A stretch of DNA of 26,956 nt, from positions 1-26,956 of the IMG/VR virus record IMGVR_UViG_3300042691_038145; one strand, given 5' to 3'. The stretch is from a virus. Shown here in pieces: positions 5,421-26,956 of this stretch (position 1 is its first letter; every line of letters starts with the position of its first letter). Position numbers and translations under genes: made by a program. Below the pieces are notes generated by a model. The model searched no databases and was not told the origin of the DNA. It worked only from the letters and a program-made list of their open reading frames with translations.

Positions 5421-6218
5421 ATGATGTTTTTGCGTTCAATGATTTTCGCAGCCGGAATTTGCCGTTATCAGCAGGAAAACTCCGAAGGGGGAGACACCGG
5501 GGGAGGCGTCCCAGGGGCGCCGGACTCGACACCGGGGGAGGCAGGGAAAACCTTTACAGAGGCAGAGGTAAACGCAATTGTGGTTGCGAGACTTGCGCGA
5601 GAAAGGGCGAAGAATTCCGGGGGGCAACCTGCGAATTCCGACCCTGAAAAGCAGGCTCTTTTCGAAATTCTGGGAATTGGTGGCGAAGGTCAACCGAAAA
5701 CCGTTTCGGAATTTCTGGAATTGCAGAAGCGAACCGAAGAAAAGGGACAGGCAGAAAAGGGGAAATACAAGGAACTTTGGGAGAAAACAAAGGCGCAATT
5801 GGAATTGCAGAATCAATTGCTGAACGAAACCAAGGCGCAATATACCGCTCGAATTTCCCAGCGAGAAACCGAGCGCGCGTTGCTTGCTGAATGTGGGAAT
5901 GCAATTCAGCCTTCCCAGGTTGCGGCATTGCTTCGAAGTCGAGTAAGGTATAACGCAGAAACCGACGAAGTAGAGGTCATGGAAATTGACGGGAAAACCC
6001 AGGCCGTTGACGTAAAGGGTAACCCGTTGTCAGTAAAGGATTTGGTGTCGGTATTTCTGAGAGAAAACCCTCACTTTTTGCCAGCAAGCAAATCGGCCGG
6101 GGGAGGAACCAACCAAACGCCTACAGGGGCAGCACCACAAGGCCAACGCACTATGGTTGTGAAAACAAACCAACGCTACGCAATCGGCCAGAACGGCGAG
6201 AAAATCCTAGTCGAGTAG
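5421..6218 (+). CDS. Capsid scaffolding protein
   Basis: This 265-residue protein should fill and shape the prohead and then leave or be degraded. Residues 44-64 (TFTEAEVNAIVVARLARERAK) match the start of many phage scaffolds of the minor structural gp20/DUF4355 type. The centre (about 95-155) is a long charged coiled coil, and the tail has the common Gly-rich linker (SAGGGTNQTPTGAAPQ). It lies between portal and major capsid. Residues 23-43 are encoded by the G-rich repeat and lie just before the conserved domain, so they look like an insertion in a tolerant N-terminal arm. ATG at 5421 and the next codon, ATG at 5424, are both possible starts. Confidence 0.82.
   Translation: MMFLRSMIFAAGICRYQQENSEGGDTGGGVPGAPDSTPGEAGKTFTEAEVNAIVVARLARERAKNSGGQPANSDPEKQALFEILGIGGEGQPKTVSEFLELQKRTEEKGQAEKGKYKELWEKTKAQLELQNQLLNETKAQYTARISQRETERALLAECGNAIQPSQVAALLRSRVRYNAETDEVEVMEIDGKTQAVDVKGNPLSVKDLVSVFLRENPHFLPASKSAGGGTNQTPTGAAPQGQRTMVVKTNQRYAIGQNGEKILVE
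5493..5542 (+). repeat. Two coding copies of the G-rich repeat in the scaffold gene
   Basis: GACACCGGGGGAGGC occurs at 5493-5507 and again at 5528-5542. The first copy is read as D-T-G-G-G and the second, in another frame, as S-T-P-G-E, within the same protein. CGGACTCGACACCGGGGGAG at 5521-5540 is the longer family core with one change. Confidence 0.85.
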
Positions 6219-7366: not shown

Positions 7367-8095
7367 ATGAATTCAGTTTTCGTGGTCAACGATTCAGGGC
7401 GGGTTTTGGAAATTCAAGATGCCGCATTGCGCGCAAAGCTATTGCGCACGGGTTTTCGTGAGGCAATGCCGCGAGAAATTGAGCAATACAAGATTTTGCT
7501 TGAGAATTCCCGTGGAAATGTCGAAGCAATCCGCGAAAATCGGGTAAAGCGAAAGGCAAATCGTTTGCAATCAATTATCGCAGCCGAGTGTCCAAATATG
7601 TCACTTGAATTGCGTGGAAACGTCAAGGTTTTTTGTGAGGGTTTGGCAGCGAACTACGTTGGACGTGCACCGGTAGAGGAAGTACCGGCGCCCCCCTCAC
7701 TTGACCAGAGGGCCCCAGAGGGCGCGGACGGTCTGCCCCCTTCCCTGCCCCCCTCCCTGCCCCCTGTAGGGCCTCAGACGCGCTTTGAGGAATCCACAGG
7801 GGCAAAACTGCCCCCTCTGCCCCCTCTGCCCCCCTCCCCCGGTCCTGTAGAGGCAGAGGCAGAGGGCCTGGGACTCGACACAACCGAGTCAGAGGGTGAG
7901 GTACAAGTTGACTTGTCGGCAATGGATGAAACCGAGCTTGAAAAGCTGCTGACAGAGTATTTCAATTTCGACGCACGAAACCTTACCAAGCAAAATATCG
8001 AAGATTTGGCACAGGAAAGGGGTGTGCCAATTGACGGCCGCAAATCTCGCTTGAATATGCTGCGAGACGTTGCAAAGCATTTTGCTACGGCGTAA
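7367..8095 (+). CDS. Head-associated protein with repeat-derived Pro-rich linker
   Basis: This 242-residue protein has three parts. Residues 1-75 hold a segment (VNDSGRVLEIQDAALRAKLLRTGFREAMPREIEQY) resembling a short domain found in many phage head-region proteins. Residues about 108-171 are low complexity, built of LPPLPP and EAEAEGLGLD units from the G-rich repeat family. Residues 183-242 form a charged helical domain (ELEKLLTEYFNFDARNLTKQNIEDLAQERG) resembling small helix-extension-helix or SAP-type modules. The ATG at 7367 has AAGG 7 bases upstream; a TTG at 7304 is in frame but lacks support. The stop directly abuts the next start. It is likely a head decoration or connector accessory, but I do not recognise the whole protein. 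Confidence 0.65.
   Translation: MNSVFVVNDSGRVLEIQDAALRAKLLRTGFREAMPREIEQYKILLENSRGNVEAIRENRVKRKANRLQSIIAAECPNMSLELRGNVKVFCEGLAANYVGRAPVEEVPAPPSLDQRAPEGADGLPPSLPPSLPPVGPQTRFEESTGAKLPPLPPLPPSPGPVEAEAEGLGLDTTESEGEVQVDLSAMDETELEKLLTEYFNFDARNLTKQNIEDLAQERGVPIDGRKSRLNMLRDVAKHFATA
7690..7881 (+). repeat. Coding C-rich/G-rich low-complexity block
   Basis: The segment contains CTGCCCC/CTCCCTGCCCC units, the reverse-complement sense of the G-rich repeats, then GAGGCAGAGGCAGAGGGCCT and a partial core GGGACTCGACAC (7870-7881). It encodes the Pro-rich linker of the head-associated protein. Confidence 0.75.
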
Positions 8096-12806: not shown

Positions 12807-13223
12807 ATGGAAACTCGCAGCAAATCGCACAATCTCATTTACTCCCCACAATTTCCGCGCATTATGTTTCTTACCCGAACGGGTGGAAATTCAAGCACGG
12901 CGGTAAGCCAGTCGCAGCCAGGCCCAGGGAAAAACCCGGTAAATTTCACTGGCCCTACAACGTGTGGTACTTTGACCGTAACCAAGCCAATTGATTTGGT
13001 GAAGGATGCCCCCATTATCCGATGGAATCGGGAATGGGATAAGGGCCGACGGGTATTGATTGACATTGTAGAGCAGCCAACAAATCCCGACGGCACTCCG
13101 AACGGCCCTCCGACGATTTGGCGAAATTGCGCAAAATCTGATTTTGACACTGGAGACAGTGATTCGAATTCAGCAGACCCGCAAATGCTGACAATTGCGC
13201 TTCAACCAACGCACCGCGAATAG
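12807..13223 (+). CDS. Tail tube protein
   Basis: This 138-residue protein follows the sheath and precedes the chaperone and tape measure, the invariant place of the tube gene in contractile phages. It is rich in beta strands (VNFTGPTTCGTLTVTKPIDLVKDAP and RRVLIDIVEQ) with few helices, as expected for the tube fold. The ATG has CAGAGG just upstream. The call rests on size, order and strand content. Confidence 0.65.
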   Translation: METRSKSHNLIYSPQFPRIMFLTRTGGNSSTAVSQSQPGPGKNPVNFTGPTTCGTLTVTKPIDLVKDAPIIRWNREWDKGRRVLIDIVEQPTNPDGTPNGPPTIWRNCAKSDFDTGDSDSNSADPQMLTIALQPTHRE

Positions 13224-13265: not shown

Positions 13266-13613
13266 ATGGCAACGAGAAAATTGGAATTGTTGGACGGTTT
13301 CGTTGACGATAGCGGTGTAGCGCACAAAAACGTTGTTTTGCGCTCACCACAAATGTCAGACGAATTCGAAAGGGACAGAAAACTCACCCTTATGCGCGCA
13401 AAGGGTCAGATAATTCCGAAGGATGGAAACTTTGAATTGTTTGCGCTTATTTTGGAGTGTATTGAATCCTGGGACGGCCTGGTAAATTGGAACATGCAAA
13501 CAATGGCCAGCCTTTCCCGTAGGGACGGGCGTTTGATTGTTCAAACGTTTGCTTTTTTGGATATGGCGCCGGCATTTGACGACGACGGGCAGCTTACAGA
13601 AGCGGGAAAATAA
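13266..13613 (+). CDS. Tail assembly chaperone, short form (lambda G-like)
   Basis: This 115-residue protein lies between tube and tape measure, where phages encode the chaperone that binds the tape measure during tail assembly. It has the usual plan: an N-terminal segment (VLRSPQMSDEFE), a helical centre (FALILECIESWDGLVNWNMQTM) and the LSRRDGRLIVQTFAFL helix comparable to Mu gp41 and P2 gpE types. It ends at TAA 13611-13613, directly after the heptamer GGGAAAA, which allows a longer product by -1 frameshifting. Confidence 0.75.
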   Translation: MATRKLELLDGFVDDSGVAHKNVVLRSPQMSDEFERDRKLTLMRAKGQIIPKDGNFELFALILECIESWDGLVNWNMQTMASLSRRDGRLIVQTFAFLDMAPAFDDDGQLTEAGK

Positions 13614-13756
13614 TTGCGACTCGTTACGCAATGGCAGCGCGAGTCGCTAAAATAACAACCGTTCCTGTGTTACACTTGCTCGACTGCACAGATAAAGAAT
13701 TCGCAATTTGGCAACATGCCGCAATAATCGTGCTGAAAAAAGAGCAAGGTAAATAA
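13266..13756 (+). CDS. Tail assembly chaperone, long form made by -1 frameshift (lambda GT-like)
   Basis: If the ribosome slips back one base on GGGAAAA (13604-13610), translation continues through 13611 in the -1 frame and stops at TAA 13754-13756, directly before the tape measure ATG at 13757. This adds 48 residues (starting IIATRYAMAARVAKI and ending LKKEQGK) to give about 163. The extension has no start codon at a useful position and ends exactly where the next gene begins, so it is most simply a T-like domain. The arrangement matches the conserved frameshift in tail genes of lambda, Mu and P2. The extension contains the ribosome-binding site of the tape measure gene. Confidence 0.85.
13604..13647 (+). 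promoter_or_regulatory. Programmed -1 ribosomal frameshift signal
   Basis: The heptamer G GGA AAA (13604-13610) is in the X-XXY-YYZ phase of the chaperone frame and directly precedes the zero-frame TAA. After a 5-base spacer (13611-13615) comes a stem: GCGACTCG (13616-13623) pairs perfectly with CGAGTCGC (13640-13647), and CGC (13627-13629) pairs with GCG (13637-13639) above a three-base bulge, leaving a 7-base loop. Slippery site, spacer and GC-rich stem all match known -1 frameshift signals. Confidence 0.88.
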
Positions 13757-16087
13757 ATGTCGGGAAGGTCAGAAACAGAATTGCTAGTTAGACCGATACT
13801 AATTGGCGCTGATTTCAATACTAAATTGACCAATACGGCTAACGCTGTAAAAAATTTGCACGACCGTCAATCGGCCGGAATTTCAGACGCAATACACGAC
13901 GTTAGAAGATTAGAGGGGGGATATTCCAGACTTGCTAACGCCATAAATACCAGCGCCTCTGTATCCGGTAGCATGGTTAGAAATCTAATGTCTGTCCAAT
14001 CCGCAATTGTGGGTTTTGCGGCATACGGTGCCGGCCGGACGATAATCGAACAAACAATTGGCAGGCAAGACCAAATAGCACGGGCTAGGCTGCAATTAGG
14101 CGCCATTTTGCAAGATGCTGAATTATTGCAGCAAAGCGAAGCACGGGCCCTGAGATTGACGCAGGAAATCGCAGGTATTGACTACACCGGAGCAATGCGC
14201 GGTCTAGCTATGACCATAAATCTTGCAGGGGGTAGCGTAGACAGGGCAGCCGAGCTAGTAAAGCTGGCTAAGGCGCTGGAATCTATTTCGCCAGAGCAGG
14301 GATTTGAGGGTGCATTATTTGCACTAAAAGAATTGGAAAGCGGCGATGCAATGTCGCTAAGGGAGCGGTTTGGTTTTCGGTTGCTAAATGGTTCTGAGGC
14401 ACAGGAAATTGCAAGGCAAAACGGGCAGACGCTAAACGAATACTATTTCGGAGAATTGGAAAGGCAATTAGATCGGAGATATGCGGGGGGCGTTACGGGC
14501 GCCGGTGTAGAGGCTTTGCTTTCAATTGACAACGCAACGCTTTCTGGTCAAATAAACATGCTGTCAACGGCGATAAGCGATATATTTGCGCAAATAGGTG
14601 CTGACGCTTATTCAGAACTGACCGGTAGCGGGGGAATTGCTAGAATTTCGGCAGAGCTTGACCGGCTGAAACTAGACCCGGAATTCAGGCAGGGTGTAAG
14701 GGATTTGGCAGCCAACCTTTCGAGCGTGGCAGAATCGGCAATTGAATTGGCTGTAAATCTGCCACAAAATCTGCTGGCAATGCGGGATTTTCTGTCAGAA
14801 TACGGGGATATTCTGAAAACGGTGTTCGCTCTTTACGCTGCTAACCGGTTGACCGATGGTGCACTAGGCAGGGGCGCCGGTGCGCTTGCTGGCTATGCTT
14901 CACGTGGTTTGTCGAGTAGGCTAGGGGGGCAGGCAGGGGCGCTTGCACAGGGCCTAGAATCGGCTGCAATAGACGCGCAACCGGTACGTGTGGTCAATTG
15001 GTCAGAAATGCCAGGGGCAGGGGGCCTCCCAGGGGCCCCTACAGGCCCGCCAAACGTTCCGAACGTGCCAGGGGCAGGGGAGGCAGCGGGTACGGGCGCA
15101 ATGGGCCTTGCTGCTCGTTACAGGGCCTTTGGTTTCAGTGGCCTAGTGTCGAGCCTCACTAGCAGCGTTGGCAGCATGACCATACTAGGGGCAGGTATTT
15201 TAGCAGGGGCAGCCGCTTTATATGCTCAATTGACTTTTGTGGGCGGTTTGAACGAAGAAATGCAAGGCACTTTAGAGCAATTAGAAAGGGAGGCAGAAGC
15301 CGCAAGGGATTTGCGGGAAAGGCAACAAGCAATGTTCGAGGCCTCCCAGAATTTACAGCAAACACAAAACACCTACGAAAATTCAGAGGCAGCAGGGCCT
15401 TTGTCTAGAGCACAGGAAAACGAGGCAATGCTTCGAAGTTTCATTAGCTCCGAAATTCTGCCCTCACTAATGACAGGGCAATTAGATTCTTCCTCACTGA
15501 ATTATCAGAGCACTCTAGAACCAATTTTGGCAGAGGCGCGCTCTGGTATTGAGGCAATTTTCGGGGGAGAAAACACCGTATTTTCTGGCAGTGAAAATCA
15601 ATCCGCAATTTTGGCAACGTTGAACACTCTGCTAGCCGAGCAAGGTCTAAGGTTCAACGTATCCGAAGGGCAATCAATTAGAGAAGGTTCTTTTCAGTCG
15701 GGTATTTTCACAAAAGAATTCGATAGCCAGGTTTCGCGTATTGAGCGCGCATATAGCCGGCTTTTCGACACCGCAACCGGTCAAGCAAGGGGCCCAGCGG
15801 AGCAACAAGTTATTGAAAATTTGCGCCAGTCTGGGGAATTAGACCGCTTGCTTAGGGAGCGGGATAAAAACCGTGGGATTTTGTCTAGCAGTGAGGCAGC
15901 CGCACAAATATTGAATAGAAACCCTGGGGCTACCCCGCGAAGGGAAGTAGTTTTTCAAAATGGCGCGGTGCAAATAACAGTCAATACACCAAACGGGCTT
16001 TTGACACCGCAACAAGTAACCACGCTGCAACAAAGCGTAGAAGAATTATTTGTGGAAGCGGCTAGAAGCGCAAGCACAAAAGAGTAG
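13757..16087 (+). CDS. Tape measure protein
   Basis: This 776-residue protein is expected to set the tail length. The N-terminal part is helical and Ala-rich (NAVKNLHDRQSAGISDAIHDV), as usual, with long helices to about residue 400. Residues 417-446 are a Pro/Gly linker built of repeat-family bases. A strong hydrophobic helix (MTILGAGILAGAAALYAQL, about 474-492) could insert in the host membrane during DNA ejection. A Gln/Glu-rich coiled region follows (about 500-535). No peptidase domain is evident. At about 0.15 nm per residue, the family's usual ratio, the tail would be roughly 115 nm. AAGG 7 bases before the ATG serves as ribosome-binding site. It is the longest late gene and follows the chaperone, as expected. 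Confidence 0.85.
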   Translation: MSGRSETELLVRPILIGADFNTKLTNTANAVKNLHDRQSAGISDAIHDVRRLEGGYSRLANAINTSASVSGSMVRNLMSVQSAIVGFAAYGAGRTIIEQTIGRQDQIARARLQLGAILQDAELLQQSEARALRLTQEIAGIDYTGAMRGLAMTINLAGGSVDRAAELVKLAKALESISPEQGFEGALFALKELESGDAMSLRERFGFRLLNGSEAQEIARQNGQTLNEYYFGELERQLDRRYAGGVTGAGVEALLSIDNATLSGQINMLSTAISDIFAQIGADAYSELTGSGGIARISAELDRLKLDPEFRQGVRDLAANLSSVAESAIELAVNLPQNLLAMRDFLSEYGDILKTVFALYAANRLTDGALGRGAGALAGYASRGLSSRLGGQAGALAQGLESAAIDAQPVRVVNWSEMPGAGGLPGAPTGPPNVPNVPGAGEAAGTGAMGLAARYRAFGFSGLVSSLTSSVGSMTILGAGILAGAAALYAQLTFVGGLNEEMQGTLEQLEREAEAARDLRERQQAMFEASQNLQQTQNTYENSEAAGPLSRAQENEAMLRSFISSEILPSLMTGQLDSSSLNYQSTLEPILAEARSGIEAIFGGENTVFSGSENQSAILATLNTLLAEQGLRFNVSEGQSIREGSFQSGIFTKEFDSQVSRIERAYSRLFDTATGQARGPAEQQVIENLRQSGELDRLLRERDKNRGILSSSEAAAQILNRNPGATPRREVVFQNGAVQITVNTPNGLLTPQQVTTLQQSVEELFVEAARSASTKE
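15007..15093 (+). repeat. Coding G/C-rich low-complexity segment in the tape measure gene
   Basis: CCAGGGGCAGGGG recurs within this segment (near 15010 and 15068), together with CCTCCCAGGGGCCCC. It is related in composition to the G-rich repeat family but lacks the GACTCGACACC core. It encodes a Pro/Gly linker between the helical part and the membrane helix. Confidence 0.55.
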
Positions 16088-23562: not shown

Positions 23563-23702
23563 GGCCTGGGACGCTTCCCAGAGGCCCTGGGGAGGGCAGA
23601 GGGCCCTAGCCTGGGACTCGACACCGGGGGAGGGCCTGGGACGCTTCCCAGAGGCCCTGGGGAGGGCAGAGGGCCCTAGCCTGGGACTCGACACCGGGGG
23701 AG
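23563..23702 (+). repeat. 70-bp tandem repeat, two copies, between convergent genes
   Basis: Bases 23563-23632 are identical to 23633-23702. The array begins on the base after the TAA of the 438-residue gene and ends just before the - strand resolvase stop (23706-23708). Each unit holds the hairpin CTGGGA/TCCCAG (23566-23571 with 23576-23581 in the first), a second possible stem GGCCCT/AGGGCC (23583-23588 with 23600-23605), and the core GGGACTCGACACCGGGGGAG. These structures could stop transcription from both sides, although no T-run follows them. Unlike coding copies, these units contain CTAG before the core. Confidence 0.9.
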
Positions 23703-23705
23703 GGC

Positions 23706-26771: not shown

Positions 26772-26956
26772 GGGCAGCTAGCCGAGCAACTAGCGGCCGG
26801 CCGGTTAGCGGCCTGGGACCGGGGGAGGGCCGTAGACCGAGGCCGGGGGAGGGCCGTAGCCTGGGGCTGGGGCCTGGGGAGGGTAGCCCGCTGGGGGGCC
26901 CTGGGGAGGGCCGTAGCCCGCTGGGGGGCCCTGGGGAGGGCCGTAGCCCGCTGGGG
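26772..26956 (+). repeat. GC-rich end with 30-bp tandem repeat
   Basis: After GC-rich palindromic DNA (GGCCGGCCGG near 26794) come GGGGGAGGGCCGTAG units, then a 30-bp unit beginning GTAGCCCGCTGGGG, repeated at 26883-26912 and 26913-26942 with a partial third copy from 26943 to the window end. The units lack the GACTCGACACC core but share the CCTGGGGAGGG segment with 23563-23702 and 24-34. The array is cut by the window edge, so its true copy number is unknown. I see no gene in this stretch. Confidence 0.85.
26863..26883 (+). other. Potential G-quadruplex
   Basis: Four G-runs (26863-26866, 26869-26872, 26876-26879, 26881-26883) are separated by loops of 2, 3 and 1 bases, a canonical G-quadruplex pattern on the + strand, upstream of the polymerase operon and on its template strand. 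Confidence 0.5.

Follow-up and report, generated by a model that had tools for sequence, protein, structure and literature searches.

The slip site of the phage lambda G/GT frameshift is GGGAAAG. In lambda, this -1 shift joins a chaperone with affinity for the tape measure protein to a tube-binding extension; -1 frameshifting of the G/GT kind is widely conserved in tailed phages, and the motif G_GGA_AAG has been called highly shift-prone (PMC5009743). Of the heptamers known from IS elements, G_GG.A_AA.A is one of the more efficient in E. coli tests (PMC4066793), and the shorter motifs C_CCU and C_CCC have been measured as modest shift motifs in the same bacterium (PMC4066793). For the Microbacterium phage Bush, a -1 shift in the tail chaperone has been reported at GGGAAAA (PMC11749239). 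Here we describe a locus of an uncultivated phage whose putative tail assembly chaperone gene very probably carries a lambda G/GT-type signal for programmed -1 ribosomal frameshifting.

Genomic context of the locus

The window, that is the whole stretch of DNA analysed, comprises 26,956 bases of an IMG/VR virus record, an uncultivated-virus contig. Its + strand carries the myovirus morphogenesis module of a contractile-tailed phage fragment, with genes for terminase, portal, major capsid protein, sheath and tube followed by ORF 13266-13613, a 776-residue ORF, a contractile-injection tube-like protein and baseplate proteins. The features relevant to the frameshift are the following, with the evidence for each in brackets.

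12807..13223, + strand: tail tube protein, the gene preceding the chaperone (phrog_5102, tail tube, E=7e-9; tube profile of the distant relatives described below, E=0.0007)
13266..13613, + strand: putative zero-frame tail assembly chaperone (G-like), 115 residues plus stop (position between tube and tape measure; weak match to phrog_508, tail assembly chaperone, E=0.003; no Pfam match)
13604..13610, + strand: slippery heptamer G_GGA_AAA, in phase (sequence and phase)
13611..13613, + strand: zero-frame stop codon TAA directly 3' of the heptamer (sequence)
13610..13756, + strand: -1 frame extension (T-like), 48 codons plus the stop TAA at 13754-13756 (open frame; profile match, E=0.0013; codon usage)
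13616..13647, + strand: hairpin 5 nt past the heptamer (-17.5 kcal/mol; z=-3.8; top 0.3% of local windows)
13631..13633, + strand: in-frame ATG of the extension, within the hairpin loop (sequence; no Shine-Dalgarno match)
13757..16087, + strand: putative tape measure protein, 776 residues, whose ATG adjoins the stop of the extension (position and length only; no family match in Pfam or PHROG)

We tentatively designate ORF 13266-13613 as a tail chaperone, on account of its position between the tube and the putative tape measure gene and its weak PHROG match. An AlphaFold model of the protein reached a pLDDT of 43.9 and was not used.

The window phage is a lineage without close relatives in IMG/VR. 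Single-protein scans of this collection with the chaperone, the sheath and the terminase found no close relative, and the best terminase matches are 41-47% identical. Alignments of the terminase, the portal and the extension, used as queries, returned only distant phages or no match; the sheath alignment was too divergent to serve as a query, and tblastn of the fusion protein against named phages gave chance matches only.

GC-rich direct repeats around CCTGGGACTCGACACCGGGGGAGG occur in the window at 26-94, 1652-1831, 5522-5563, 7849-7881, 23563-23703 and 26819-26940. They fall in or beside several unrelated ORFs and are read as GLGLDTGGG-like peptides. The 24-nt core of the repeat has no match among other viral contigs, and the repeat was rejected as a host tag, as its one match in a genome collection is probably due to chance. 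A 62-nt inverted repeat (142-203 and 495-556, 82% complementary) lies near the left end of the record.

Slip site and hairpin

The initial annotation had proposed that a -1 frameshift joins the tail chaperone to an extension, and the slip site, its phase, the spacer, the hairpin and a profile match of the extension all support this proposal. The anatomy of the signal can be read directly from the DNA. ORF 13266-13613 ends in GCG GGA AAA TAA, such that the heptamer GGGAAAA is read as G_GGA_AAA, in the correct phase and right before the stop, as had been claimed. In-phase heptamers of the form X_XXY_YYZ (with Y being A or T) occur at 23 of the 7,431 codon positions in the window (0.31%), and ORF 13266-13613 is the only one of the 26 called ORFs with such a heptamer within its own -1 overlap. 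The motif lies inside the overlap of the zero and -1 frames, the latter being open from 13580 to 13753. Since the -1 frame is closed at 13577, an in-phase TTTTTTG at 13553 was discarded as a candidate site.

The 5-base spacer (TAATT) between heptamer and hairpin was likewise recovered, as was the GC-rich stem, which consists of 8 Watson-Crick pairs (GCGACTCG/CGAGTCGC, 13616-13623 with 13640-13647) and is extended, above an internal loop, by the 3 further pairs described earlier, namely one T-G and two G-C pairs. A stimulatory structure 5-8 nt downstream of the slip site is usual but not obligatory, and the hairpin observed here lies within this range. Its stability of -17.5 kcal/mol is a minimum free energy; for the segment 13611-13660, only 1 of 200 dinucleotide shuffles was at least as stable, and z amounts to -3.8. 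Among 40-nt windows spanning 2.2-23.5 kb the hairpin belongs to the top 0.3%, and none of the 23 in-phase heptamers is followed by a stronger structure. Once 77 nt of context are included, z drops to -1.1, and the structural evidence therefore covers the local hairpin only.

The -1 frame extension

As initially described, the -1 frame stays open for 48 codons (13610-13753, encoding IIATRYAMAARVAKITTVPVLHLLDCTDKEFAIWQHAAIIVLKKEQGK), and its stop codon immediately precedes the ATG at 13757 of the putative tape measure gene. The predicted fusion protein comprises 115 + 48 = 163 residues. An open run of 48 codons is by itself probably unremarkable. In its codon usage the -1 frame resembles coding sequence; only 1.7% of out-of-frame pieces score equally well. 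Contrary to the initial description, the extension does possess a start codon, the in-frame ATG at 13631, which opens 41 codons.

Distant relatives provide a comparison. Four IMG/VR phages found via the terminase have a sheath that matches the window and share the order sheath, tube, chaperone, -1 ORF and tape measure. In the Gordonia phage GMA6 the gene order agrees from the tube onward, and the Brevibacterium phage Cantare shows this arrangement too, annotated as two genes. A scan with the extensions of these phages enlarged the set to 35 distinct -1 extensions in distant myoviruses, all of them (35 of 35) located in the -1 frame and with a conserved slip site. We built a profile from the 35 extensions, excluding the window, and ran it on all six-frame segments of the window. 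The segment 13580-13753 ranks first of 608 (E=0.0013, the runner-up having E=1.4). The match is significant, though low-scoring (13.8 bits): none of 5,000 shuffles of the extension peptide reached this score, nor did any of 26,164 unrelated segments from other phage loci, the best of which scored 8.8 bits. The aligned part is AARVAKITTVPVLHLLDCTDKEFAI, against the consensus AArlgelFgtDPirlLdcteeeWli. The chaperone profile of the relatives gave no match to the zero-frame protein of the window. With tube, sheath and extension matched and the chaperone not, the former three are recognisable across these phages and the chaperone domain is not. Codon usage and profile match together show that the -1 extension is of coding character and related to known -1 extensions, and the match gives independent support to the frameshift reading.

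The shift signal itself differs among these phages. Nearly all of the 35 relatives carry (A/G)ACCC[TC]NCGA with an in-phase C_CCU tetramer (C_CCC in a few), and the slip sites of GMA6 and Cantare are CCCTTTG and CCCTTTA, respectively. The GGGAAAA of the window is hence replaced by a C_CCU tetramer or by CCCTTTR. The spacer of the relatives measures about 6 nt, and a clear hairpin is found behind the slip site in about half of the 35 (mean z of -2.3, range -6.5 to 0.9). The plan common to the window and its relatives is a slip site followed, after 5-6 nt, by a hairpin, with different slip sequences.

The non-heptamer site (A/G)ACCC[TC]NCGA is kept by a large group of IMG/VR uncultivated myoviruses (L098-L187, for example L161 near 3501). 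In this group a hairpin of up to 12 pairs often lies approximately 6 nt past the slip site, in some cases with the zero-frame TAG in its loop. In the paper library searched, no publication pairs CCCTAC with frameshifting in a tail assembly chaperone.

Several named phages show small ORFs at comparable positions. In Cantare (NC_071014.1, 19559-20334), genes 22 and 23 have the appearance of a single -1 frameshift product, with CCCTTTA 6 nt before the stop. Phage ctsHD2 (MW202816.1, 33509-34092, - strand) has a chaperone gene with an in-phase TTTTTTA; its -1 ORF, annotated as a protein of its own (39 residues), extends over the start of the tape measure gene (AAATGA). This phage was set aside, its chaperone belonging to Pfam Phage_TAC_15 and showing no similarity to the window chaperone. 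In the Thermus phage phiMa (MH673674.1, 1233-1917), the tape measure gene is immediately preceded by genes 45 and 44, which overlap each other in the +1 (or -2) frame. This small ORF is similar, but due to its +1/-2 frame phiMa is not counted as a parallel; its genes 45/44 possibly represent a different type of shift.

Alternative explanations

Several observations count against the frameshift reading: no close relative was found, the family match of the zero-frame protein is weak and the chaperone profile of the relatives does not match it, and the score of the extension is low. The best of the competing explanations, in our view a very improbable one, holds that translation starts anew at the ATG at 13631, through reinitiation or internal initiation, and gives a free peptide of 41 residues in place of a fusion. 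This ATG lies 17 nt past the stop, exactly where the conserved core (AAR...) starts, and comparable ORFs are sometimes annotated as small genes in their own right, as in ctsHD2 and Cantare. However, the ATG has no Shine-Dalgarno match and sits in the loop of a stable hairpin, and several relatives have no start codon at the corresponding place. The relatives moreover keep P-Y/F residues encoded right at the slip site, which would be translated by frameshifting only and not by initiation at the ATG. A separate peptide also leaves the slippery heptamer and its spacing unexplained.

Still less probable is a sequencing or assembly error, by which one base was lost or gained in GGGAAAA (the record reads GGGAAAATAA) and the true gene is one continuous frame. 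The window belongs to an uncultivated-virus contig, and a one-base homopolymer error would give an identical picture; but the same -1 split occurs, with another slip sequence, in 35 distinct relatives including GMA6, and a hairpin 5 nt downstream is not explained by a chance error. Transcriptional rather than ribosomal slippage, on the four A in GGGAAAA, is the least credible source of the long product, since such slippage normally requires longer homopolymer runs and the spacing of the hairpin is in keeping with a shift by the ribosome.

Proposed mechanism

The following account of the slippage, of how often it occurs and of what the two products do is inferred. Most ribosomes would translate ORF 13266-13613 and halt at the TAA at 13611, giving the 115-residue chaperone. 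A minority would pause at the hairpin (13616-13647) with GGA in the P site and AAA in the A site, slip back onto GGG and AAA, and translate 48 more codons, giving the 163-residue fusion. If the products work as in lambda, the tape measure protein may be coated by the short form and the tail tube protein recruited by the extension on the long form, so that the ratio of both forms would matter for tail assembly.

The signal might also have a dual job, which we consider unlikely: shifted ribosomes could reinitiate on the tape measure gene, so that one slip would set the dose of both the long chaperone and the tape measure, and the hairpin-masked ATG at 13631 could add a third product. Reinitiation on the tape measure gene is conceivable because the -1 frame ends immediately before its ATG, the zero frame having stopped 143 nt earlier.

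If translated as proposed, the locus calls for a revised annotation in an isolated phage lineage, with a 163-residue fusion in place of a 115-residue protein followed by a gap. Even between lineages in which chaperone domain and slip sequence no longer match, the -1 extension can be recognised, which helps in the search for such fusions among uncultivated phages.

Comparison with known systems

The lambda G/GT locus and the window have in common a chaperone gene (putative in the window) between the tube and (in the window by position and length only) the tape measure gene, a -1 shift near the 3' end (predicted in the window), a short extension, and a slip motif of the form GGGAAAN. The likeness shown here is one of arrangement and motif, not of sequence, and the tail is flexible in lambda but contractile in the window phage. 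Unlike in lambda, the heptamer of the window ends at the zero-frame stop and is followed, 5 nt on, by a strong hairpin.

GMA6 (NC_030906) resembles the window in the order of tube, chaperone, extension and tape measure and in the -1 frame; its extension is part of the profile that detected the one in the window, and its chaperone is annotated as 'translated by conserved programmed translational frameshift'. In contrast to the window, GMA6 has a structural protein in the place of the sheath, its slip site CCCTTTG lies 3 nt before the stop, and its chaperone domain is not similar. In the uncultivated myoviruses L098-L187 a -1 extension likewise follows the chaperone gene, without exception among the distinct cases, and sheath and tube homologues are present; these phages differ in having the tetramer C_CCU and no heptamer, and a chaperone of about 180 residues as compared to 115. 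Phage Bush, compared here by its reported heptamer, has the identical GGGAAAA and a -1 shift, but is a siphovirus. GGGAAAA is thus an already reported shift site of tail chaperones, and the window fits a known kind of frameshift.
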